From assembly GCA_030584065.1 (NCBI GenBank), contig CP129489.1:2027497-2091496 (forward strand): a stretch of DNA of 64,000 bases, in the 5' to 3' direction. The notes beneath the pieces were generated by a model. That model did no database searches and was not told the DNA's origin. It saw only the letters and a program-made list of their open reading frames with translations. Source of the stretch: Flavobacteriales bacterium (lineage in GTDB: Bacteria > Bacteroidota > Bacteroidia > Flavobacteriales_F > PHOS-HE28). This document shows positions 1 through 45,744 of the stretch, piece by piece. The translations under genes were made by a program, and so were the position numbers. The stretch's first letter is position 1; the number at the start of each line of letters is the position of its first letter.

Positions 1-2
1 TT

Positions 3-2510
3 ACGCGGCCCGATGGGTCGAGCACCATGCGCTGGGGCTTCTTCACGCGCGAGGCCACCTGGGACTCCACCGTATCCGACCCCGACATGGCCTGGCTGAT
101 CGAGGGCACCGGCAGCCCGCTCCAACCTTACGCCGTGCGTTTCCGCTTCGCGCCGGACCAGGAAGGCGCATGGAGCTTCAGGATCTCCGCGAAGGCACCG
201 CTTACCTCCGATGCCCAGGGGGCGACGCTCCCCGAACTGCTCCACACGGGCTTCGGCCTGCAGTGCATGCCACCGCTGGCCGACAACAACGGCTACTTGC
301 AGGTGAATGCCGCCAACCGCCGCCACCTGCAATTCCAAGGCGATCCGGCGCTGCAGGGCGACGAGACACCCTTCTTCGGCCTGGGCACCAACATGGCCAA
401 CATCAACCACGGCAGCTTCGGGGCAGGCGTCGTCCCGCCGGGCGTCACCTACATCAAGCGCGACCACCGCAACTTCCAGGAGACCATGGAGCGCCTGCAT
501 GCCGTGGGTGGCAATTACCTGCGCATGTACCTCCTGGAGAAGATCTTCTCGCCCGAATACGTGAACCTCGGGGTCTACGACCAGTACCGGTCGCAGCCGG
601 CCTGCGCCAATGGCAATGCGCCCTCCTTCCGGGGCAACTGCCAGTACCAGTGCTGGGCCTTCGACCAGATGATCGACTGCGCCCGCGCCAACAACATCTA
701 CCTGCAGGTCTGCGTGGATGCCTACCCGCCGGGGATCAACTTCGAGAGCCTCGGCTGGGGCGCCAACGCCTACTGGCTCGCCTTCATCGAGCCCAACCCC
801 CTGCCGCCGCCCCAGCGCTTCAACATGCGGAAGTTCTTCTACACCTACGGCGAGGGCCACCCCGACCGCTACACCAAGGGCGTGTTCTATTACTGGAAGC
901 GCAAGTACAAGTACATGATGAGCCGCTGGGGCTGGTCGGTGAACATCGCCGCCCTCGAACCCTTCAACGAGATCGACCAGCTCCTCACCTACCGCACGGA
1001 CACCATCGACGGCAACTGCAACGAGAACGACGGCGCCTGGGCCGCCGATGCGCAGCTGCCCGATACCATCAGCGCATGGTTCGGCGACATGGCCCGCTTC
1101 GTGCGCGGCACGCAGGACCCTGAGCACCCCGCCCGATCGCCCTTGGGCGAGAACAAGCTCTTCCTGGCCAGCTATGCCATGAACGACCCCGGCATGCCGG
1201 CCGCCGAGAGCTTCTATGCGCCCCTCACCAACCCCGAGGTGGACCTCATCGATGCGCACCTGGGCCTGTACCCCGACCTCCAGGCGGAGCGCGACCTGAC
1301 CGACGAACGCATCCACCAAGGCATCCGGAATGCCACAGCCTTCTGGAACCGCTTCCCCGCAGCGCAGTCCGACTGGCAGGAACGCAAGCCCTTCAACCAG
1401 GGCGAGTACAACCACTACACGCAGTTCACCATCCCGAATCCCAACTTCCCGAACCTGGTGCTCTGGCGCAACGATGTGGAGAAGATCTTCCACAACTACG
1501 ACGTCTCCTTCCACAACGAGCTATGGAGCAGCGCCTTCAGCGGCAAGTTCGCCGCAGGAACCACCTGGCACTGGGAGCGGGTATTCTGGTGGGAGGATGC
1601 GATGCCCCTCCCACCAGAGGATGACCTGAACAATGAACAAATTGGACTATTCACAAATCATTACCCTGGCACCAATAATTTGGATTTAGGCTTAGGTATT
1701 CCAATCCCAATCGCCAATCGTCCAATTCATCACCATTTTCAAGCAATTGCGGATTTCTTGAACCGCCCAAGTATACAAGATCTCGGAATATTCTCTGGCG
1801 CTTTCACCCCGAACGAGTTCTTTGATGACGATGATTCGGACGGTATCAACCCCTTGGAGGCGTACTACCTAAGGAGCGACCAGAGCACCGCTATTGGCTG
1901 GGTGCATAACCGCAACGCCTCGGTGGCCAAGAGCTTCTATGTGATGAGCGGGGCGGGCAATGAGAACTTCCTGGGGTGCACCGCCCCTGATTCAGCAAGC
2001 ATCACGCTCTCTGGATTCTTTCCGCTGCATTCGCATTACATCACTTGGTTCCCCACGCGCATCGGTGCCACGGACCTTCCGCAAGACAGCGAATTCCCCA
2101 GTACGCTGCAGAGCGATGCCAATGGCGACATCGTCATCAACCTGGATGGTGAGTTCAACGGTGTGGACAACAACTACTTGGATACACTGCATGCTGATTA
2201 TGCATTTGTGATCACGCCTGGTCCTTTCGTGAAAAGCCTCGCCCAAGACGCTGTTGAAACCGAAACGGACACAGACTGGGACTTCTCGCTCTACCCCAAC
2301 CCCACTCGCGACTTGCTCACTCTGAGTTTCGCGGATGACACAAACAAGGATGTGGCATTGCTTGATGTTTCCGGTCGGATAGTAGCGCGACACCAGAACA
2401 TTGTTACCCTGATGCTCCAGATACCAATAGGCCCACTCGCCAAGGGAGCTTATTGGGTGCATGTCACATCGGGCGACAACATGAAGGTCAAGAAAATGAT
2501 AATCCGTTAA
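3..2510 (+). CDS. T9SS-secreted clan-A-like glycoside hydrolase, 5' end cut by window
   Basis: The frame is open to the window edge, so the ATG at 27 is internal and the true start and signal peptide lie outside. Residues counted from that ATG: 1-60 look like a DUF5060-type beta-sandwich (RFAPDQEGAWSFRI). A TIM-barrel hydrolase follows from about 95, introduced by YLQVNAANRRHLQFQ and PFFGLGTNM. ALEPFNEID gives the likely acid/base Glu315 and FNQGEY the likely nucleophile Glu460. The last 85 residues are a T9SS type A sorting domain (LYPNPTRDLL, KGAYWVHV). Substrate is unknown; a plant or microbial polysaccharide is inferred from the fold. DNA up to about 1592 is GC-rich and reappears in the copies at 7884 and 12050; from about 1620 it becomes visibly AT-richer, suggesting a mosaic gene. 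The stop is three bases before the partner gene at 2514, so translational coupling is likely. Confidence 0.8.
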   Translation, partial: TRPDGSSTMRWGFFTREATWDSTVSDPDMAWLIEGTGSPLQPYAVRFRFAPDQEGAWSFRISAKAPLTSDAQGATLPELLHTGFGLQCMPPLADNNGYLQVNAANRRHLQFQGDPALQGDETPFFGLGTNMANINHGSFGAGVVPPGVTYIKRDHRNFQETMERLHAVGGNYLRMYLLEKIFSPEYVNLGVYDQYRSQPACANGNAPSFRGNCQYQCWAFDQMIDCARANNIYLQVCVDAYPPGINFESLGWGANAYWLAFIEPNPLPPPQRFNMRKFFYTYGEGHPDRYTKGVFYYWKRKYKYMMSRWGWSVNIAALEPFNEIDQLLTYRTDTIDGNCNENDGAWAADAQLPDTISAWFGDMARFVRGTQDPEHPARSPLGENKLFLASYAMNDPGMPAAESFYAPLTNPEVDLIDAHLGLYPDLQAERDLTDERIHQGIRNATAFWNRFPAAQSDWQERKPFNQGEYNHYTQFTIPNPNFPNLVLWRNDVEKIFHNYDVSFHNELWSSAFSGKFAAGTTWHWERVFWWEDAMPLPPEDDLNNEQIGLFTNHYPGTNNLDLGLGIPIPIANRPIHHHFQAIADFLNRPSIQDLGIFSGAFTPNEFFDDDDSDGINPLEAYYLRSDQSTAIGWVHNRNASVAKSFYVMSGAGNENFLGCTAPDSASITLSGFFPLHSHYITWFPTRIGATDLPQDSEFPSTLQSDANGDIVINLDGEFNGVDNNYLDTLHADYAFVITPGPFVKSLAQDAVETETDTDWDFSLYPNPTRDLLTLSFADDTNKDVALLDVSGRIVARHQNIVTLMLQIPIGPLAKGAYWVHVTSGDNMKVKKMIIR
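363..1378 (+). repeat. About 1-kb duplicated GH core, copy A
   Basis: This stretch is almost base-for-base identical to 7884-8899; by eye I find three differences (near 692, 1215 and 1324). Its 3' part (1268-1592) is also repeated at 12050-12374. It covers the first half of the hydrolase barrel, including the acid/base Glu. Confidence 0.9.
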
Positions 2511-2513
2511 ACC

Positions 2514-4109
2514 ATGAGATCAAGTATCGCAGTGGTTACCATTTCGTTGGCTTGTGTTTCACAAGCGCAGCCCACTTTTGAGAAGATCTACTTGGCAACA
2601 GGAGCCTATAAGCGCAATCTTGTCGAACTCCCAAGTGGTAACATCCTTACCTCGATGGCCATCTATCCGGGCATTACAATACTGAACTCGTCCGGCGATT
2701 TTGTGTACTCTAATTGCTTCTGGGGAGATTCGGTGTTGACGATGCAGTCCATTCGTCCTATCACAGAGAACAACTATTTGTTCCTTTGTCTTTATCGCAA
2801 GGACTCGTGCAATTCATTCGGGAGTACTACCGTGCCATTCACCCATCCCGCCCTCGGGCGGATGGACAGCTTGGGGAACATCTCCTCCTTCAAGCATTAT
2901 AGGCTGGCGCCTGCCGGATGCCTCACCCGTGCGGGCGACCTGGTCGTTCTGAGCGACTCTGGTGCGATGATATGGGGTCGGGATACCAATTTTTATGCGT
3001 TCAGGGTCGATGCGGACCTGAACGCGCTTTGGGGGCGGCGCTTTGCGGAGGATGGTGGGATCCATTTCATGAAGGAGCTCCCCAATGGGGACCTCATCGC
3101 TGGCATTAATCTTCGGGAGGGAGGAGCATCGGTGGCGCGATTTGATACTCAAGGCAACCTCGTTTGGAGCAAGTCATACTTCCGACCGAATGGCGTAATA
3201 CACGACGCCTACGTAGATCCGGATGGTTCGTTAATTGTTACCGGCTTCACGGACAGCACCACCACCAGCATGTTCATACCATTACCAGCGGCATTTCAAC
3301 CAAAGCTCTTCATGATGAAACTGAGCGGAGATGGAACAGTCCAATGGTGCCGTGGTTTCGATAGTGCGCCTTACTACTGGCATACACCAAGGTGGTCACG
3401 ATTAATACGATCCTTGGATGGGAACTTCGTCATTGCAGTAACGTTGGGAACCGCAGGATACAACCTGCCTTCCCGGCCCTTGTTACTGAAGTTGAATTTC
3501 AATGGCGATACGCTATGGTCCAACGCCGTGGGCCACAATGGTTACTTGCACTACGTGTCTGATCTACTTGAGACAGCAGACGGAGGCTTCATGATTAATG
3601 GCAGTATACAGGGCGACCTTCCTGGAGGCTGGTCGGGTGCGCCGTATGTTTTCAAAGCTGATTCCTTAGGTCGGTTTCCCTGTTGGGATGAGCATCATTC
3701 AATTGAGACCTTAGAACTTTTCCCCACCGATAGCAGTGTAACGCTTACGCCGATAGATGGCATCACAACGCATGAAGCTTACGTGAGCGATACGACATTA
3801 GCTTCTCTTGCAACCTACGATGGTTGCACCTTCGCCACCAACATGCCCCCCCGCATGGAGCGCCGCGCGCCCATGTCCATCCGCCCCAACCCCAACACCG
3901 GCCACTTCACCCTCTCCTTCCCCGACCCCCTGATGGCCGAGAGCTACTACAGCGTGTACGACACCATGGGCAAGTTGCTCTTCCAACGGCCCTTGCCCCA
4001 GGGCAAGGAGACCGAGGAGGTGGACCTCTCGCGCTTCGGGCGCGGCACCTATGTGGTCCGGTTCACGGATAAGGAGGGGAGCTGCTACGAACGGGTGGTG
4101 GTGGAGTAG
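2514..4109 (+). CDS. Secreted propeller-like T9SS protein (partner 1)
   Basis: A 531-aa protein with an N-terminal signal peptide (about residues 1-19, ending SQA). It has repeated strands of the type DGNFVIAV, NGDTLWS and ADGGFMINGS, as in delta-60/beta-propeller secreted proteins of Bacteroidota. A T9SS type A sorting domain runs from about residue 453 (IRPNPNTGHF to YERVVVE). It probably acts at the cell surface or outside; no catalytic residues are recognisable. The ATG follows the GH stop by three bases, an arrangement repeated in every unit of this locus. The N-terminal four fifths is AT-richer than the sorting domain (from about 3838), and the sorting domain is nearly the same in the paralogues at 4269 and 6210. 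Function unknown. Confidence 0.8.
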   Translation: MRSSIAVVTISLACVSQAQPTFEKIYLATGAYKRNLVELPSGNILTSMAIYPGITILNSSGDFVYSNCFWGDSVLTMQSIRPITENNYLFLCLYRKDSCNSFGSTTVPFTHPALGRMDSLGNISSFKHYRLAPAGCLTRAGDLVVLSDSGAMIWGRDTNFYAFRVDADLNALWGRRFAEDGGIHFMKELPNGDLIAGINLREGGASVARFDTQGNLVWSKSYFRPNGVIHDAYVDPDGSLIVTGFTDSTTTSMFIPLPAAFQPKLFMMKLSGDGTVQWCRGFDSAPYYWHTPRWSRLIRSLDGNFVIAVTLGTAGYNLPSRPLLLKLNFNGDTLWSNAVGHNGYLHYVSDLLETADGGFMINGSIQGDLPGGWSGAPYVFKADSLGRFPCWDEHHSIETLELFPTDSSVTLTPIDGITTHEAYVSDTTLASLATYDGCTFATNMPPRMERRAPMSIRPNPNTGHFTLSFPDPLMAESYYSVYDTMGKLLFQRPLPQGKETEEVDLSRFGRGTYVVRFTDKEGSCYERVVVE

Positions 4110-4187
4110 CTTTAGGGCATGGGCAGTCCGGCGCCCCCCTATGTGCAGGGTCCCCTCGTTCCTCGGGAGACCCTGCAGCGGTCTGAG
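4110..4187 (+). repeat. Repeat R, copy 1 (78 bp)
   Basis: Begins directly after the stop codon of partner 1 and ends with gtctgag. Copies at 5850-5927 and 7809-7886 are identical to each other; this one differs by one base. It contains a hairpin with arms gcagggtc and gaccctgc and an in-frame ATG reading MGSPAPPYVQ. Each copy runs straight into a different GH-type 3' remnant in the same reading frame. Confidence 0.92.
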
Positions 4188-4265
4188 GGCCTTGCGCGCG
4201 GCGCCTACTGGGTGCGCGCAACGGATGGCACATTCAGCGCCACAAAAAAACTCTTAGTGCATTGA
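4119..4265 (+). pseudogene. Orphan 3' stub of a GH-type T9SS gene (48 aa)
   Basis: The ATG of repeat R opens a 48-codon frame. Its first 23 residues come from R and the last 25 (GLARGAYWVRATDGTFSATK onward) are the final strands of a T9SS sorting domain homologous to the end of the GH protein at 2510. There is no signal peptide and no catalytic domain. The TGA is followed by three bases and then the ATG of partner 2, as after the intact GH gene. It is probably a remnant or a silent donor cassette rather than a working protein. Confidence 0.65.
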
Positions 4266-4268
4266 GCC

Positions 4269-5849
4269 ATGATGAATCGGTTGTTATTCTCCGTCGTGGT
4301 TGTGTTGCCAGCATCGCTTATGCAGGCGCAGCAGGGCTTCATCAAGTACACGAGCGCGGTTGGCGCATCCAAATTCAGCATGCATCAATTAGCTGAAGAT
4401 AGAATCCTGATCGCATTGGCGAACAATTCAGGGTTCTCGATTCTGAATAGCGAAGCAATCATAGAACAAACGGTGCGCTTCGAGGTGGATACGTTGCTCG
4501 GAATTCAGGCTGTTAAACCGACACCGGACGGCGCGATACTCGCAGTTGGAACTTACCGGAAGGGAACTTGTCCTGTGAGCCAATGGGGAATGAATTACCC
4601 TGCGTGGTTCAAGGTGGTTTCGGATGGGAGTATTCCTGTCTCCTCGTATTACGAACTGAATGCAGAATACTGCTCCAACTATGCAGGTGATGCTGTTCTC
4701 ACTAGTGATGGAAGTGTGATTCTATGGGGCTTCGACAAGTTCTTCTTTGTGCTAAGGGCGGAGCAGACAGGAGATATTGCTTGGGCAAGGAGATTCAGCC
4801 ATACTACGAACGGTAGTATCCGCTTCATCAAGGAGCTCGCCAACGGCGACCTTTTGGCGGGCGTCAACATGGATACGGCTGGCGTCGCCGTGGGCCGCAT
4901 GGATGCCGAGGGCAATTTCCTCTGGCTGAAGAGCTACTTCCGCCCCAAGGGCATGATCGCCGACGCCCTCATCGAGGACGATGGCTCTTTCATCATCACC
5001 GGCTTCACCGACAGCCTCGCCGCTCCCGGATTCCTCGACCCCCTGCCGCCCGACTACTGGCCCAAGCTCTTCGTGATGAAGCTCAGCGGCGACGGCGAGG
5101 TGCTCTGGTGCAAGGGTTACGACATAGCGCCCTACCGGTGGTACACGCGCCCGGGCGCGCGCATCGAGCGGCACCATGATGGCAACTACATCCTGCTGGG
5201 CAACATCGGCGGCCTCAACCACCCCTTCGGCTACCGGCCCCAGCTGATGAAGCTGGACCACAACGGCGACACGCTGTGGACACGCTCGGCGGGCCGCGAG
5301 GGCCATGTGCACGACATCATCAACATGACGGTGTGCTCCGACGGCGGCATCCTGTACAACGGGCAGAGCCTGAGCAACAGCCCTGACATGTTCATCTTCA
5401 AGACCGACTCCCTGGGCTACCTGCCGTGCTACAACCGCTGGCACGCCACCACCATCGTGGATCTCTTCCCTACCGACAGCAGCTTCACCCTCACCAGCAT
5501 CGATGGCGCCACGGCCCATCCGGCCTTCATCACCGAGGCGGAGAACCCGCCCATCACCATCATCGATGGCTGCTCAACCGGCATGGAGCACACGGGGATG
5601 CGGCCCAGCGGCTTCCGCGTGTATCCGAACCCCACTCCGGGCCAATTCACCGTGCAGTTCAATGACCCGCTCATGGCCGAGAGCTATTATAGCGTGTACG
5701 ATGCGCTGGGCAAGCTCCTGTTCCAGCGCCCGCTGCCGCCGGGCCGCGAAACGGAGGAGGTGGATCTATCGCGCTTCGGGGCGGGCACCTACGTGATCCG
5801 GTTCACGGATAGGGAGGGGAGCTGCTACGAACGGGTGGTGGTGGAGTAG
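4269..5849 (+). CDS. Secreted propeller-like T9SS protein (partner 2)
   Basis: A 526-aa paralogue of the gene at 2514. It has a signal peptide (about 1-20, LMQAQ), propeller-like strands (NGDLLAGVN, DGSFIITGF, LWTRSAG, SDGGILYNG) and a T9SS sorting domain from about residue 449 (RVYPNPTPGQF to YERVVVE). The first third is AT-richer; from about 4810 the DNA becomes GC-rich and much closer to the paralogues, so the gene looks like a mosaic of a divergent 5' part and a homogenised 3' part. Its stop codon abuts repeat R copy 2. Function unknown. Confidence 0.8.
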   Translation: MMNRLLFSVVVVLPASLMQAQQGFIKYTSAVGASKFSMHQLAEDRILIALANNSGFSILNSEAIIEQTVRFEVDTLLGIQAVKPTPDGAILAVGTYRKGTCPVSQWGMNYPAWFKVVSDGSIPVSSYYELNAEYCSNYAGDAVLTSDGSVILWGFDKFFFVLRAEQTGDIAWARRFSHTTNGSIRFIKELANGDLLAGVNMDTAGVAVGRMDAEGNFLWLKSYFRPKGMIADALIEDDGSFIITGFTDSLAAPGFLDPLPPDYWPKLFVMKLSGDGEVLWCKGYDIAPYRWYTRPGARIERHHDGNYILLGNIGGLNHPFGYRPQLMKLDHNGDTLWTRSAGREGHVHDIINMTVCSDGGILYNGQSLSNSPDMFIFKTDSLGYLPCYNRWHATTIVDLFPTDSSFTLTSIDGATAHPAFITEAENPPITIIDGCSTGMEHTGMRPSGFRVYPNPTPGQFTVQFNDPLMAESYYSVYDALGKLLFQRPLPPGRETEEVDLSRFGAGTYVIRFTDREGSCYERVVVE

Positions 5850-5927
5850 CTTTAGGGCATGGGCAGTCCGGCGCACCCCTATGTGCAGGGTCCCCTCGTT
5901 CCTCGGGAGACCCTGCAGCGGTCTGAG
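5850..5927 (+). repeat. Repeat R, copy 2 (78 bp)
   Basis: Same element as at 4110 and identical to the copy at 7809. It again starts immediately after a partner stop codon and ends in gtctgag, then joins a 3' GH-type remnant in frame. Confidence 0.92.
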
Positions 5928-6206
5928 AGCTTGATGGAAGCTGACGAACCGGAGATCCCTATCACGGGTGGCTGGGATTTCATGATTTATCCCAATCCCA
6001 CGCGGAGCGAGTTCACCCTACGCTTTCAAGATGATAGCCCCAAGGATATCGCCATCATGGACCTCACAGGACGGCTGGTGGCTCGCTACGGCAACATAAC
6101 GGGTGGCTTGGTGCAGTTCCCGCATTTGCGCCTATCACAGGGCGCCTATTGGGTGCGTGCATCGGATGGCCTCAGGGCTAAGGCCAAACAACTCATCATC
6201 TACTGA
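5859..6206 (+). CDS. Orphan T9SS sorting-domain cassette (115 aa)
   Basis: Opens at the ATG within repeat R. After 23 R-derived residues it encodes about 92 residues homologous to the end of the first GH protein: WDFMIYPNPTRSEFTLRF, LTGRLVARYGN, SQGAYWVRAS. Only the sorting domain is left, with no signal peptide and no hydrolase barrel, so as it stands it cannot be T9SS cargo. The TGA lies three bases before partner 3 at 6210. The amino-acid sequence is diverged from the first GH tail, so this is a different allele or type rather than a recent copy. It may be a decayed gene or a cassette that becomes functional after recombination; I cannot tell which. Confidence 0.6.
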   Translation: MGSPAHPYVQGPLVPRETLQRSESLMEADEPEIPITGGWDFMIYPNPTRSEFTLRFQDDSPKDIAIMDLTGRLVARYGNITGGLVQFPHLRLSQGAYWVRASDGLRAKAKQLIIY

Positions 6207-6209
6207 GCC

Positions 6210-7808
6210 ATGGAACGAAGGCTGCTACTTGGGCTGTGTTTGTTCATTGCGTTTACTGTCAACGCGCAATCTAACTTCATGCGAATGTACCAGTCTGGTC
6301 CGAGCTTTGGCTTTGAGATCAATGAGTTACCCAGTGGGAACAACCTGGTCAATATGGGGCATTCGCATGTCATTGACGGTAATGGGTATATCAACCATTC
6401 CATGTCCTATATTGAGACCAATGTTGTTTACGGTTTGCAGAACATGAAGTACGTGGGTGGCGACCGGGTGCTCTTCGCTTCTGCAACGTGGGGTGTTCCA
6501 TGTTCGTTTGGTTCTGGCGGTTATGAAGAGCCTGTCATCGGGCTTATGGATACAGTGGGAGCGATCATGACAATGAAACGCTATGTGTTGAATACCGGGG
6601 TTTGCAATGGCATTACCAAAGGGTTGCTACCCACAGCGGATAGTGGTGCGATCGTTTGGGGCAGGTATTATGGTCCCTTCGCGCTGCGCGTGGACGGCAC
6701 ATTGGACCCCGTCTGGTCCAAGCGCCTCATGGACGCGGGTGCCTTCAGCTTCTTCAAAGAACTGCCGAATGGCGATCTCTTGGCAGGCATCAACATGCAA
6801 ACGGCGGGTGTGGTGGTGGCCCGCATGAACGCTGCAGGCGAAGTGCTATGGAGCAGGAGCTACATACGGCCACGGGGCGTGGTGAGCGATGCCATCATCG
6901 AACCGGACGGCTCCTTTGTACTGGTGGGCTATACCGACAGCACGGGTACCACGGATCCGATCTTCACGCCACTGCCGCCGGGATACAACCCGAAGCTCTT
7001 CATGATGAAGCTCAATGGCGAGGGCGATGTGCTCTGGTGCAAGGGCTACAGAAGCACCACCAACCTCTGGTACACCCGCCGCGATGCGGTGATCGAGCGC
7101 ACCTTGGACGGCCAGTACGCGGTGCTCGCCACCCTGGGGCCACCGAACCAGCACGATTGGTTCAGGCCCTACCTGATGAAAACGGACCTGAACGGCGACA
7201 CCCTCTGGACGCGATCCGTAGGACGGAACAACTATACCTACGTAACCCAGGACCTACAGGCCAGTTCCGATGGGGGCTACATGATCAGTGGCTTGATCTA
7301 TGGCGATATGCCCGGTCCTTACTCTGGAATGAGTTTCATCTATAAAGCGGACTCATTGGGCTATTTCAACTGCTGGCAGAGAGTGCCGTCCATAGAAATA
7401 ATGGACCTATTCCCAGTAGATAGCACGGTAGTGCTGAACATCATCAGCGGCATCGCCACAGCCACGCCGATGGCGTTCACGGACAGCATACTGGACTCGA
7501 GTATGGTCCCCTCATACGACGGCTGCACCTTCACCACGGGCATGCCTCTTACGATGCCGCGCAGCCGCTCCATTTCCGTCCGCCCCAACCCCACCCCCGG
7601 CCGCATCACCGTGGAGTTCCCCGATCCCCTGCTGCGCGATAGCTACTACAGCGTGTACGATGCCATGGGCAAGCTCTTGTTCCAGCGCTCCTTGCCCAAG
7701 GGCCACGAAACGGAAGAAGTGGATCTAACGTGCTTCGGAGCTGGCACTTACGTCATCCGCTTCACGGATCAGGAGGGCAGTTGCTACGAGCGGGTGGTGG
7801 TGGAATAG
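6210..7808 (+). CDS. Secreted propeller-like T9SS protein (partner 3)
   Basis: The third member of the partner family, 532 aa, with a signal peptide (about 1-20, ending VNAQ), repeated propeller strands (NGDLLAGIN, DGSFVLVGY, NGDTLWTRS, SDGGYMISG) and a sorting domain from about 455 (VRPNPTPGRI to YERVVVE). Most residues between about 160 and 400 match partners 1 and 2 closely, while the first 150 residues and the stretch around 390-440 are divergent and AT-richer. The start is fixed by the three-base gap after the upstream TGA. Its stop abuts repeat R copy 3. Confidence 0.8.
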   Translation: MERRLLLGLCLFIAFTVNAQSNFMRMYQSGPSFGFEINELPSGNNLVNMGHSHVIDGNGYINHSMSYIETNVVYGLQNMKYVGGDRVLFASATWGVPCSFGSGGYEEPVIGLMDTVGAIMTMKRYVLNTGVCNGITKGLLPTADSGAIVWGRYYGPFALRVDGTLDPVWSKRLMDAGAFSFFKELPNGDLLAGINMQTAGVVVARMNAAGEVLWSRSYIRPRGVVSDAIIEPDGSFVLVGYTDSTGTTDPIFTPLPPGYNPKLFMMKLNGEGDVLWCKGYRSTTNLWYTRRDAVIERTLDGQYAVLATLGPPNQHDWFRPYLMKTDLNGDTLWTRSVGRNNYTYVTQDLQASSDGGYMISGLIYGDMPGPYSGMSFIYKADSLGYFNCWQRVPSIEIMDLFPVDSTVVLNIISGIATATPMAFTDSILDSSMVPSYDGCTFTTGMPLTMPRSRSISVRPNPTPGRITVEFPDPLLRDSYYSVYDAMGKLLFQRSLPKGHETEEVDLTCFGAGTYVIRFTDQEGSCYERVVVE

Positions 7809-7886
7809 CTTTAGGGCATGGGCAGTCCGGCGCACCCCTATGTGCAGGGTCCCCTCGTTCCTCGGGAGACCCTGCAGCGGTCTGAG
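7809..7886 (+). repeat. Repeat R, copy 3 (78 bp)
   Basis: Identical to the copy at 5850. Its end (gtctgag) overlaps the start of the duplicated GH core: the gagacaccc that follows matches position 363 of the first GH gene. Confidence 0.92.
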
Positions 7887-10271
7887 ACACCCTTCTTCGG
7901 CCTGGGCACCAACATGGCCAACATCAACCACGGCAGCTTCGGGGCAGGCGTCGTCCCGCCGGGCGTCACCTACATCAAGCGCGACCACCGCAACTTCCAG
8001 GAGACCATGGAGCGCCTGCATGCCGTGGGTGGCAATTACCTGCGCATGTACCTCCTGGAGAAGATCTTCTCGCCCGAATACGTGAACCTCGGGGTCTACG
8101 ACCAGTACCGGTCGCAGCCGGCCTGCGCCAATGGCAATGCGCCCTCCTTCCGGGGCAACTGCCAGTACCAGTGCTGGGCCTTCGACCAGATGATCGACTG
8201 CGCCCGCGCCAGCAACATCTACCTGCAGGTCTGCGTGGATGCCTACCCGCCGGGGATCAACTTCGAGAGCCTCGGCTGGGGCGCCAACGCCTACTGGCTC
8301 GCCTTCATCGAGCCCAACCCCCTGCCGCCGCCCCAGCGCTTCAACATGCGGAAGTTCTTCTACACCTACGGCGAGGGCCACCCCGACCGCTACACCAAGG
8401 GCGTGTTCTATTACTGGAAGCGCAAGTACAAGTACATGATGAGCCGCTGGGGCTGGTCGGTGAACATCGCCGCCCTCGAACCCTTCAACGAGATCGACCA
8501 GCTCCTCACCTACCGCACGGACACCATCGACGGCAACTGCAACGAGAACGACGGCGCCTGGGCCGCCGATGCGCAGCTGCCCGATACCATCAGCGCATGG
8601 TTCGGCGACATGGCCCGCTTCGTGCGCGGCACGCAGGACCCTGAGCACCCCGCCCGATCGCCCTTGGGCGAGAACAAGCTCTTCCTGGCCAGCTATGCCA
8701 TGAACGACCCCGGCATGCCGGCCGCCGAGAGCTTCTACGCGCCCCTCACCAACCCCGAGGTGGACCTCATCGATGCGCACCTGGGCCTGTACCCCGACCT
8801 CCAGGCGGAGCGCGACCTGACCGACGAACGCATCCACCAAGGCTTCCGGAATGCCACAGCCTTCTGGAACCGCTTCCCCGCAGCGCAGTCCGACTGGCAC
8901 GGTGCTGCGATTCCTATGCCCTTCATCATCGGCGAAACCTCATTCAGCGCCGAGGATTCCAACGACGACAATTTTGACGACCCTTTCAACCATCATCTGG
9001 TCGACGACCCCGCCCATGACTATCCGCCCTGGCGAGACGGGCCCGAATCGCAACAATCCGCCTATGCCTCCCAGACCATGACGGCCACACGAGCGTACCT
9101 GGGTTCCGGATACTCTTGGTGGGGATTCCAGAACGGCCGTGCGGCGAATCTAACTCCGCCCTCACCTCCAACACCCAGCAACATTCAACACTGGCAAGGG
9201 GTCTACCGCGCTAACTTCTACGGTGCACTCAAGTATGGCGATGAAAACGCCAATCCGCCGATTCCTTGGGAAGACAAGCTTGTTGCTGGCACGTTCAGCA
9301 CTTACTCACTCGCCTCAGCCCCCAGCTCCCTTCCCACCCCTCCAGCCGATTACCATCGCGGCAAGTTCAATGGCTCACTGAGCAGTGGTACCGTGTTGGG
9401 AACCGTGAACTTAATTGATCAGGACGGCCAGGCCATAACACACGCCGTGGGTTGGACGAAGCTGATATACTCCGACGCCTCTAACGATCCCGTGCATGAG
9501 ATTGTGACAAATCAAATCTCGAATGACCAAGGCCTGTTGAATATCCATCGCGGACCGGTAATCAACGGCTGGTATGTGTCCAAGTATGAGATGCGCGTTC
9601 ACGTGCCCGGTGGTGCCACAAGCCCGGGTGACGCTTCAAACCAGTCCTATCAGTCCTGGCAACAGCTCGGATCATCCCTTACCCTAGCGCGCTCTAAGCT
9701 CGCCTTTACGGCGGAGGCCTCCGGCGTCACCGTGCCGATTGGCCAGAGCTATGATCCGAAGGCATGGAGCACCCTCTTTGTGAACAATGTGACTTACGAG
9801 GGCAATGGTTCGCAAGGGGCTAGTGGAGATCTGCGCGCCAGACAATTCATTCATATGTCCACAGAGTTCCATGCAGCGCACGGCAGTGAAGTTCACATTC
9901 ATCCAGAGAATGTCTTCCCCGATTGCGGGGATCCGCATATGCTCGTCGCTGAGGACAATCCTCACATAAACCATGAATCGGCGAAACGTGCTACTGATTC
10001 CGCGCATCAACTGGTTCTTCGTTTCAAGGACTTCCCCGCATGCGGGCTTCGTGTTGCGCCAAATCCCTGCGGTGAGTTCCTTGAGGTTTCTGGTCTGCCC
10101 CCTGGCGCACCTTATCGGATTGTTTCGGACCAGGGAGCGATTGTGCTCACAGGCATCATAACTGTGCAACCGATTCGCATTCAGGTGAGCGCTATTTCAC
10201 CAGGTCACTACACACTGCATGCGGAGTTCGAGAACACCACGTGCTCTGCACCATTCGTCAAAATGAACTGA
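7818..10271 (+). CDS. Chimeric GH-type T9SS protein lacking signal peptide (orphan cassette 3)
   Basis: 817 codons from the ATG inside repeat R. Residues 1-22 come from R. Residues 23-360 are the same half TIM barrel as in the first GH gene (acid/base at Glu225, EPFNEID). From nt 8900 the sequence is entirely different. The new half still supplies a likely nucleophile in FIIGETSF (Glu373) and an aromatic strand (SGYSWWGF), so a complete clan-A-like active site can be drawn across the junction. The end is a T9SS-like domain (LRVAPNPCGEFLEV, SPGHYTLHAEF). There is no signal peptide and no DUF5060-like domain, so the copy is truncated at its 5' end. The TGA is three bases before the next gene. 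Annotated as CDS because the frame is intact; it may be silent. Confidence 0.7.
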   Translation: MGSPAHPYVQGPLVPRETLQRSETPFFGLGTNMANINHGSFGAGVVPPGVTYIKRDHRNFQETMERLHAVGGNYLRMYLLEKIFSPEYVNLGVYDQYRSQPACANGNAPSFRGNCQYQCWAFDQMIDCARASNIYLQVCVDAYPPGINFESLGWGANAYWLAFIEPNPLPPPQRFNMRKFFYTYGEGHPDRYTKGVFYYWKRKYKYMMSRWGWSVNIAALEPFNEIDQLLTYRTDTIDGNCNENDGAWAADAQLPDTISAWFGDMARFVRGTQDPEHPARSPLGENKLFLASYAMNDPGMPAAESFYAPLTNPEVDLIDAHLGLYPDLQAERDLTDERIHQGFRNATAFWNRFPAAQSDWHGAAIPMPFIIGETSFSAEDSNDDNFDDPFNHHLVDDPAHDYPPWRDGPESQQSAYASQTMTATRAYLGSGYSWWGFQNGRAANLTPPSPPTPSNIQHWQGVYRANFYGALKYGDENANPPIPWEDKLVAGTFSTYSLASAPSSLPTPPADYHRGKFNGSLSSGTVLGTVNLIDQDGQAITHAVGWTKLIYSDASNDPVHEIVTNQISNDQGLLNIHRGPVINGWYVSKYEMRVHVPGGATSPGDASNQSYQSWQQLGSSLTLARSKLAFTAEASGVTVPIGQSYDPKAWSTLFVNNVTYEGNGSQGASGDLRARQFIHMSTEFHAAHGSEVHIHPENVFPDCGDPHMLVAEDNPHINHESAKRATDSAHQLVLRFKDFPACGLRVAPNPCGEFLEVSGLPPGAPYRIVSDQGAIVLTGIITVQPIRIQVSAISPGHYTLHAEFENTTCSAPFVKMN
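7884..8899 (+). repeat. About 1-kb duplicated GH core, copy B
   Basis: Near-identical to 363-1378 (three differences seen). It stops abruptly at the shared gactggca, after which the two genes have no visible DNA similarity. Confidence 0.9.
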
Positions 10272-10274
10272 GCG

Positions 10275-11942
10275 ATGAAAGATCTACGTCCCCTCTTCTG
10301 GCTCGCGTGTATCTGCGTATCGTTCTCCGGCCAATCGCAAGCGCTGGAATGGCTGCGGCAATTCAACAGTTCGGGACCAAATTTGGGTACGGATGGCACA
10401 TTGCTAGCCGGGGGAACTGACGGCAGCATCTACGCAGCAGGGACCATCAGTGCAGGCACAATTAACCTGGGCCAGAGTCAGATGGAGGTCTCAGGGCGTG
10501 ATGATGCGCTCTTAGTGAAGCTGAGCCCGGAAGGTACCGTTGCCTGGGGTCGGCTCATTGGTGGCCCTTGTACAGATGATTTCGGCGCAAACGACGATGC
10601 TTATTGTCTACTGTTCGATGCGGATGAGGAGCAAATCGTTGTTGGGGGCGCTTATTCAGGAACCGCGACGTTCGGAGGCATTGAGTATGTGGGTAGCTGC
10701 CAGGTCTTCCGTTATGGCTTCATCACGGCCTACGACCAGCTGGGAGTTGAAGCTTGGGGGCAGGTCATTCTGGGCGAGGATGTTCTGGTAAGAGAAATAC
10801 TGAAGGCCAGTAGCGGTGAGCTGCACGTCTTCGGCGTAGCCTCGGAGTGGGATGCCTATTTCAGCATCAATCCGTTGGTAAGCGTTCCAGTCGGGGGCTT
10901 CCATGCCATCTATGGTGCGGACGGCAGCTTCGTCTTTGCCGAGCGCATGCTTGCGCACGGCCAAGTCTTTCGAGGCTGCACAGCCAGCTCAGGGATGCTT
11001 GTCTGTGGTACATATTCCGAGAACGATACACTTTGGGGCATGCCATTGCCGCATGCCGGCGCGTACGATAATGGGTTTCTCTGCCTTTCAGACGGCAACG
11101 GCCTGGCTCACTGGGTTGTAACCGTGGGCTCCAGCACCAGTGCCAGTTTCATCGATGGGGTGGAATTGAGCAACGGAGATTTCGTAGCCCATGGCAGATA
11201 CGATGATGATCTATTCCTACCAACGGATACGCTGGAAGCTGTTGGCGCGGCGAACTTCCTGGCCTGCTATTCCGCGGATGGCACTTTCAAGTGGGCCAAG
11301 AATATGCCTTCCCCTGGCTTCTTGATCGGCTTCGGCCCCATGCAAGCGGCAAGTGACGGAAGCTTCTACTTCACGGGCACCTTCGCGGATGAACTGAACG
11401 TGGGCACCACGACTTTAGCTAGTAACACTAGCCGGGATAATTTCGTCCTGCACCTGGATAGCATGGGCAATGTGCTGCATGGCCTCCACGTGGGCCGCGT
11501 TCGCTTCGGCAATTGCCCCGGGCTGGTGGTGAACAGCGATGGCATCTACGTGGGCTCGAACTTTGACAGCACCATGGTCATTGGCGCGGAGACCTTCCTG
11601 CCCACGGTACAGGACTATCCGGATCTCTTCGTGGCCAAGTTCGACAGCCTGCCGGCCATTAATTCGATCAACTCTCTGGTCATCGGCAATACCGAGCTGC
11701 TCATCTACGCCAATCCGAACAATGGTACGTGCACAGTGGAGCTTCCGGGGTCCATCAGTCCAGGCAGCGAAGTCCAGCTCCGGATCATCGATAACATGGG
11801 CCGTCTTGTTGACGCAGTGCCATTGCGTTTGGATCGGCAAGGCCGGGTTGAGGTGGATATCCGTGCACAGGCCAAGGGGCTCTACCATCTGGAGCTCCTT
11901 GCTGGGGCGCGGCGGTACACCGGAAAGATCGTGTTCGAGTGA
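10275..11942 (+). CDS. Secreted repeat (SBBP/propeller-like) T9SS protein (partner 4)
   Basis: A 555-aa protein with a signal peptide (about 1-23, ending SQA), beta-propeller-like repeats (DGSIYAAGTI, DDALLVKLSPEGTVAWGR, SDGSFYFTGTF, RDNFVLHLDSMGN) and a T9SS sorting domain from about 475 (IYANPNNGTCTVEL, KGLYHLELLAG). It is analogous to partners 1-3 in position and plan, starting three bases after a GH-type stop, but clearly diverged in sequence. Its C-terminus is not the homogenised YERVVVE type and it is not followed by repeat R. Probably surface-exposed; function unknown. Confidence 0.78.
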   Translation: MKDLRPLFWLACICVSFSGQSQALEWLRQFNSSGPNLGTDGTLLAGGTDGSIYAAGTISAGTINLGQSQMEVSGRDDALLVKLSPEGTVAWGRLIGGPCTDDFGANDDAYCLLFDADEEQIVVGGAYSGTATFGGIEYVGSCQVFRYGFITAYDQLGVEAWGQVILGEDVLVREILKASSGELHVFGVASEWDAYFSINPLVSVPVGGFHAIYGADGSFVFAERMLAHGQVFRGCTASSGMLVCGTYSENDTLWGMPLPHAGAYDNGFLCLSDGNGLAHWVVTVGSSTSASFIDGVELSNGDFVAHGRYDDDLFLPTDTLEAVGAANFLACYSADGTFKWAKNMPSPGFLIGFGPMQAASDGSFYFTGTFADELNVGTTTLASNTSRDNFVLHLDSMGNVLHGLHVGRVRFGNCPGLVVNSDGIYVGSNFDSTMVIGAETFLPTVQDYPDLFVAKFDSLPAINSINSLVIGNTELLIYANPNNGTCTVELPGSISPGSEVQLRIIDNMGRLVDAVPLRLDRQGRVEVDIRAQAKGLYHLELLAGARRYTGKIVFE

Positions 11943-12049
11943 GCACACGGCGAATGTGTGGTTATCGACACGGGTTCACATTTGCCAACGCAAGACGCCC
12001 GGCTGAGCAGCGGCCACGGGGATAACTTCCCCGACGATTCCATGCAACA

Positions 12050-12374
12050 GTACCCCGACCTCCAGGCGGAGCGCGACCTGACCGACGAACGCATCCACCA
12101 AGGCTTCCGGAATGCCACAGCCTTCTGGAACCGCTTCCCCGCAGCGCAGTCCGACTGGCAGGAACGCAAGCCCTTCAACCAGGGCGAGTACAACCACTAC
12201 ACGCAGCTCACCATCCCGAATCCCAACTTCCCGAACCTGGTGCTCTGGCGCAACGACGTGGAGAAGATCCTCCACAACTACGACGTCTCCTTCCACAATG
12301 AACTCTGGAGCAGCGCCTTCAGCGGCAAGTTCGCCGCAGGCACCACCTGGCACTGGGAGCGCGTGTTCTGGTGG
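12050..12374 (+). pseudogene. Internal fragment of the GH gene
   Basis: 325 bp match 1268-1592 of the first GH gene with several substitutions (for example cagctcacc for cagttcacc). It encodes YPDLQAERDLTDERIH through ERVFWW, including the NQGEY nucleophile strand. It has neither gene end: upstream, 11943-12049 is unrelated and carries no repeat R; downstream the frame runs into a GC-rich stretch before the ABC-F start. It is best read as a remnant. Its 5' boundary differs from the R-joined copies. Confidence 0.8.
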
Positions 12375-12504
12375 CCCGATCGCAGCCGGTGCACAGGCAC
12401 CGGCCGCCTGCCGATCCCGGGCCGCTGCGCCCCACCTGCCGCCGGTTGCCGACCTTCGCGCCCCGGCCGCCGCGGCGCCCCCCCCGCGCCGGCCGCCACC
12501 GCCC

Positions 12505-14406
<1,902 letters not shown>

Positions 14407-45718: not shown

Positions 45719-45744
45719 GCAGGGTCTCCTGAAAGGGACCCTGC
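45719..45744. repeat. Hairpin with R-like arms
   Basis: Arms gcagggtc and gaccctgc around a 10-base loop; the same 8-bp arms form the hairpin inside repeat R (4110, 5850, 7809). It may also terminate the gene ending at 45691. Confidence 0.5.

Follow-up and report, generated by a model that had tools for sequence, protein, structure and literature searches.

Loci in which C-terminal modules are kept as orphans behind a full-length gene are known from toxin systems, e.g. Salmonella rhs, where an orphan tip is activated by recombination across 522 bp at 95% identity (PMC3967940). Within the Bacteroidetes, the TANFOR/BaCT polymorphic toxins are linked to the type IX secretion system (T9SS) and lie beside SprB-repeat genes (PMC7073777), and the available text on Porphyromonas gingivalis describes surface proteins, including the Kgp proteinase, as strain mosaics with allelic exchange, discordant with the genome phylogeny (PMC5266723). 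The locus considered here lies at the left end of a 64,000-bp stretch of a Flavobacteriales genome (contig CP129489.1; the whole stretch analysed is termed the window) and comprises a gene for a putative glycoside hydrolase (GH), its downstream partner gene and a series of orphan units behind them (Table 1). It is probably a diversification locus for an enzyme and partner exported by the T9SS, in which a two-gene block is exchanged and orphan copies are kept behind the active gene.

Several features are shared with the Rhs and contact-dependent inhibition (CDI) loci, i.e. a full gene with a constant N-terminal part and an exchanged C-terminal part, a downstream linked gene that covaries with that C-terminal part, and orphan modules further downstream, whose core remnants could serve homologous recombination; a further likeness is that other strains carry orphan forms joined to the full gene. 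The 522 bp at 95% identity of Salmonella rhs compares with 1013 bp with 3 mismatches here. The differences are that neither a toxin tip nor a small immunity gene was found, that both proteins have T9SS sorting domains, and that the block spans two genes and ends inside the second, the right constant flank being the C-terminal domain (CTD) of the partner itself. The locus thus works like an Rhs/CDI orphan-module locus, but is not filed as a member because a toxin domain and an immunity-type partner were not found.

The likeness to the TANFOR/BaCT toxins extends to the phylum, the T9SS, the adjoining SprB-repeat gene, the variable C-terminal parts and the downstream partner. By contrast, scans against Pfam and NCBIfam gave no match to a TANFOR N-terminal or a BaCT C-terminal domain, and the enzyme resembles a glycoside hydrolase; orphan arrays and exchange are not described in PMC7073777, in which the word 'recombination' is absent. 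The P. gingivalis variants are, in the available text of PMC5266723, domain or allele variants of single loci rather than arrays of tail plus partner behind an active gene. The variation here is blockwise over kilobases, and does not suggest a diversity-generating retroelement. Literature text searches for the specific combination, with preprints and most subscription papers outside their scope, returned nothing further.

The mosaic structure is directly apparent when loci are compared in pairs. In two genomes with shared flanking genes (L089 and L090), the DNA is mostly ~100% identical from the SprB-repeat gene to GH residue ~600, 43-74% identical across the GH tail and partner body, and climbs to 80-96% at the partner CTD. 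Similarly, L096 and L098 are alike at the GH start and over the last ~120 bp of the partner and divergent in between, and the two loci of one genome (L080 and L081 of G037) have GH DNA that is mostly 96-100% identical, then 29-65% identical from residue ~880 into the partner. The original prediction, that tail and partner are exchanged behind a constant GH, is supported by these pairs, with the same core preceding a different tail and partner in both L089/L090 and L080/L081. Exchange in related genomes, the absence of which had been named as counting against that prediction, was also found in the converse form, in which different cores precede the same tail and partner: unit 3, an orphan of the window genome (G000), matches the active copy L082 of G037 at 83% amino acid identity in the tail and 85% in the partner body, with 68% in the CTD. 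Orphan G009_134 and the active copy of G044 likewise have partner bodies with 94% and CTDs with 71% identity. As judged from such sequence matches, orphan blocks of one genome are the active blocks of another. As a separate observation, L080 and L081 carry identical ~0.9-kb insertion sequence copies (282-residue open reading frame) at the same GH site, with a further copy in L080.

The exchanged unit had been predicted to be the tail plus the partner; their co-exchange stands, while the block is wider, starting as early as GH residue ~650 and stopping within the partner, at about residue 450. On the partner side, bodies are 50% identical within genomes and 45% between them; for the CTDs the values are 86% and 64%, a difference reached in 0 of 2000 label permutations. 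Within genomes, fourfold sites are 27-46% identical in the body versus 70-75% in the CTD, with the step at residue ~450; the likeness of the CTDs therefore comes from recombination and not from protein constraint. Base composition shifts at the same borders. In the window, GH residues 1-650 have a GC content of 66%, with 90% at third codon positions (GC3), and residues 651-1027 have 52-53% (GC3 63-69%); the partner 1 body has 51.5% (GC3 58%) and its CTD 66% (GC3 95%). Units 2-4 have composition steps in the same direction as the active unit, and genus-wide the GC3 of the CTD exceeds that of the body in 38 of 39 copies, while the GH step varies among genomes.

Covariation of tail and partner across genomes, also anticipated, is seen between GH residues 675-1025 and the partner body, with r of 0.25-0.60 and 0 of 1000 permutations for most intervals. 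For GH residues 25-675, covariation with the body is weak (r -0.07 to 0.43); it is the partner CTD that the GH N-terminal part follows (r up to 0.77). The covariation of the GH tail with the partner body predicts that the two proteins meet. Since sequence, synonymous sites and composition all agree, the C-terminal half of the GH and the partner body are, on this comparative evidence, one exchangeable block, lying between a GH N-terminal part and a partner C terminus that are each specific to the genome.

The comparison set comprised 45 genomes of the genus, an order-level search having given the identical 45. The GH occurs in 17 of these and the partner in 31; at E<=1e-60, the partner was found in none of 195 other genera sampled at class level. 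Nearly every full locus has the gene order SprB-repeat gene, GH, partner. In the window genome the SprB-repeat gene encodes 439 residues (PF13573, E=5e-19), and the active GH gene starts at -573 relative to the window, which thus opens inside a gene of 1027 residues in total. Orphan partner copies number 22, in 14 genomes, with GH remnants ranging from none to more than 500 residues, most of the copies keeping a GH tail. Of the orphan partners, eighteen are intact, one is cut by a contig end, another is disrupted, and in two no clear start codon is present at the coordinates used.

The description of the window array as a GH with its partner followed by three units, each built of a repeat (R), a GH 3' remnant, a stop-NNN-ATG junction and a partner, was confirmed, as were the lengths of the remnants (25, 92 and 795 residues) and their difference in type. 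A fifth GH remnant, partnerless and located at 12050-12374, had been missed. The junctions lie at 2508-2516 (TAAACCATG), 4263-4271 and 6204-6212 (both TGAGCCATG) and 10269-10277 (TGAGCGATG), so that their spacing and positions are as proposed, although the first stop codon is TAA and not TGA. This 3-bp gap from stop to ATG is the usual operon junction, being present in 33 of the 45 partner copies of the genus; it is hence inherited, is no mark of rearrangement, and was rejected as a signature of the mechanism.

The 795-residue remnant of unit 4 is chimeric, a copy of part of the active GH core being followed by the C-terminal half of another GH family. This second part (TailB) aligns from its first residues with GH5-type proteins of the genus, one of which (L148) matches PF00150 with E=2e-11. 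The join is in frame and lies after the EPFNE motif but before the second presumed catalytic Glu (NQGE in the GH, IIGE in the GH5 tail), so that unit 4 fuses two families between the two presumed catalytic Glu residues. In this it differs from DUF5060-type and GH5 enzymes, which the locus otherwise resembles in its weak DUF5060 match, its EPFNE and GE motifs and the alignment of TailB with GH5 proteins over their C-terminal half. A perfect 111-bp direct repeat of GH sequence flanks the unit-4 insert, as a single crossover that inserted DNA into a GH copy would leave. The GH5-type operon comes with a SprB-repeat gene and tandem partner copies of its own (L174, L176-L178).

Further arrangements were observed in the same gene families. 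Tandem GH5-family partners, in three copies, and tandem full GH5 operons are present in L174 (G013) and in L177 and L178 (G019, G042). In L148:2043-7517 (G041), a GH5-type operon is followed immediately by a fragment of the GH-partner CTD, as if blocks had been replaced. A third kind of cassette lies behind the same SprB-repeat gene in L147:2802-7962 and L091:2-4749, and encodes a BNR-like protein of ~1030 residues and a secreted protein of ~300 residues; in L147 the end of the latter is the GH partner CTD.

Table 1. Features of the locus in window coordinates.
Feature	Position	Strand	Remarks
Active GH gene, 3' part	1..2510	+	GH-like core followed by a variable C-terminal part that has a T9SS type A sorting domain; L004:11924-15007
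Constant GH core segment	366..1378	+	near-exact copy in unit 4 (3 mismatches/1013 bp); substrate for homologous recombination
Active variable block	1379..3848	+	GH residues ~651-1027 and partner 1 body; GC 51-53% vs 66% in flanking constant parts
Partner 1, 531 residues	2514..4109	+	signal-peptide-like start, beta-propeller body, T9SS CTD
R copy 1	4096..4187	+	partner 1 3' end and hairpin-bearing spacer
Orphan unit 2, GH tail remnant	4188..4265	+	25 residues and stop
Partner 2, 526 residues	4269..5849	+	intact
R copy 2	5836..5927	+
Orphan unit 3, GH tail remnant	5928..6206	+	92 residues; complete T9SS CTD
Partner 3, 532 residues	6210..7808	+	intact
R copy 3	7795..7886	+
Orphan unit 4, GH core fragment	7887..8899	+	GH residues ~314-651, without signal peptide; matches 366-1378
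111-bp direct repeat, left copy	8789..8899	+	flanks unit-4 tail and partner insert; 100% identical to 12050-12160
Unit 4 tail (TailB)	8900..10271	+	C-terminal half of second, GH5-type family
Partner 4, 555 residues	10275..11942	+	intact; partner type of GH5 family
111-bp direct repeat, right copy	12050..12160	+
GH remnant 5	12050..12374	+	tail A type, without partner; 97% identical to GH 1268-1592; ends at intergenic region before ABC-F gene

Both the GH and the partners look exported via the T9SS. Type A sorting domains score above the curated cut-offs (PF18962, TIGR04183) in the GH and in partners 1-3, that of partner 4 falling under the cut-off (22.9 of 27 bits); signal peptides were judged by eye. 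The assignment of the GH as a glycoside hydrolase is likely, rather than proven, because there is a weak DUF5060 match in the N-terminal third (21.4 bits, below the cut-off of 27.2) and a profile comparison leads to DUF5060 proteins of solved structure (E=8e-8); the AlphaFold2 model (pLDDT 33) is too poor to use, and the molecular function proposed is inferred. The partner matches no Pfam family beyond its tail, and its AlphaFold2 model (pLDDT 74) finds beta-propellers as matches in the Protein Data Bank.

Taken together with the mosaic comparisons, these features suggest one active operon, which encodes the SprB-repeat protein, the GH and a secreted beta-propeller partner, and a two-gene block that begins within the GH, stops shortly before the end of the partner gene and is exchanged both among strains and among loci. 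Homologous recombination at the constant flanks, i.e. the GH core on the left and the partner CTD with its spacer on the right, is the likely route, with displaced or imported blocks staying behind the active gene as orphans in which the partner is intact and the GH truncated. Recombination between the unit-4 GH core and the active gene, for instance, would lead to expression of TailB with partner 4, 7521 bp being looped out. The mosaics, the block borders, the covariation, the shifts in composition and the match of orphan to active copies in other genomes are observed; from these we infer homologous recombination as the agent, the role of the orphans as a usable reserve, and the interaction of GH and partner.

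It may be asked whether the GH is an antibacterial effector and the partner an immunity protein protecting against relatives, as in polymorphic toxin systems. This proposal concerns function only and is compatible with block exchange as the mechanism. At least 18 of the 22 orphan partners are intact while their GH is truncated, the arrangement and orphan structure match those of Rhs (PMC3967940), and PMC7073777 describes polymorphic toxins that are linked to the T9SS and adjoin SprB-repeat genes. The resemblance to orphan modules of polymorphic toxins that had been noted thus stands for the layout, but not for toxin and immunity: the locus proteins gave no match to a toxin domain in Pfam, NCBIfam or PADLOC; the partner matched no immunity family and, as a beta-propeller of ~530 residues with a T9SS sorting domain, is unlike a small cell-bound immunity protein; and the variable part of the enzyme contains its own sorting domain. 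An effector/immunity role is consequently considered unlikely.

An ordinary tandem family, arising by in-place operon duplication, decay of the GH, divergence of the bodies and gene conversion at the 3' end, with neither import nor a reserve, would account for the tandem position of the orphans and for the tandem full operons of some genomes (L177, L178); many GH remnants resemble decay products, and gene conversion of the CTD would fit the likeness within genomes. By contrast, the bodies within a genome are nearly as divergent as those between genomes (50% versus 45%), single bodies match active copies of other genomes at 85-94%, the near-identical GHs of L080 and L081 have different partners, and composition steps lie at the block borders. 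Duplication in place thus seems a rather poor prospect as the explanation.

The repeat R, present in three copies that are 99-100% identical, is 92 bp long and occurs at full length nowhere else in the genome. Each copy begins within the conserved 3' end of the partner and terminates at ...GGTCTGAG, and carries a hairpin (GCAGGGTCCC..GGGAGACCCTGC) whose family has members at 19 scattered places in the genome. A process directed by this hairpin or by a specific site (REP/RAYT, IS200/IS605-like or one-ended transposition) might be imagined to move the orphans by cutting at the fixed 3' end of R, which is the same base in three junctions with differing GH breakpoints. The array of a second genome (G002) has its own hairpin spacer of ~95 bp after several partner stop codons, and the 3' end of this spacer hardly varies among at least three units; the folding of both spacers is better than that of most shuffled sequences (z -2.1 and -3.1). 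Against this process, the hairpin family is also found in intergenic positions elsewhere without cassettes, the sequence of the G002 spacer is unrelated to R, and no transposase was noticed in the window array, though no specific transposase search was made. Such hairpin-directed movement is given a low probability.

R was rejected as an attC-type or cassette-specific site, since the hairpin family is dispersed, also at sites without cassettes; an Rfam scan of positions 1-13000 gave no match, and an attC-type consensus at R was not seen by eye. The G002 spacer was likewise rejected as the same element as R, since its sequence differs and it is practically confined to arrays. Members of the hairpin family (GCAGGGTC..GACCCTGC) lie in the window at 4145-4176, 5885-5916, 7844-7875 and 45719-45744; several of the 19 places are clustered, among them some at 2178-2198 kb, close to genes resembling those of type I restriction-modification systems (L042, L043). 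A search for plasmid DNA gave no match. A GAG microhomology is present at the unit-4 junction, and the unit-3 junction is also compatible with GAG.

Assembly artefact, in the form of collapsed or chimeric repeats, is scarcely credible, because the window genome is a single contig of 3.92 Mb and similar arrays are present in several genomes that were assembled independently, even if the contigs of several relatives end within these repeats.

Some observations weigh against exchange of the block by homologous recombination with retention of orphans. Neither a recombinase nor a recombination intermediate nor a population mixture was seen, and no fully active locus with TailB behind the GH core was found in the relatives. 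Homologous recombination at the GH core and at the partner CTD and R accounts for the borders and the mosaics, but in its simple form not for the end of R, which is fixed at an identical base in three junctions with unequal GH breakpoints. The breakpoints also vary by pair (GH residue ~120, ~600 or ~880), and 'cassette' therefore denotes a tendency rather than a single fixed unit. The permutation tests for covariation and CTD identity ignore phylogeny. Finally, a genome of the same species (G001), which itself speaks for exchange by having a flank 93% identical and a single, different partner at the site, has its locus on a short contig beginning in thyA. There (L130:1-2300) a thymidylate-synthase-like frame is followed by a GH tail remnant, one partner and the ABC-F flank of the window; the join of thymidylate synthase and GH tail could be real or a chimera.

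We give about even chances to a wider reading, a genus-wide system in which an exported enzyme and its exported propeller partner are diversified together, through exchange of a two-gene block with constant flanks and with an orphan bank, for surface recognition or competition and not for toxin and immunity. The variation may serve competition, recognition or escape at the cell surface. If this is true, orphan-module exchange, which is known from toxin loci, would not be tied to toxins, and the locus would be a pointer to a surface interaction of environmental Bacteroidota that changes fast and has gone unrecognised.
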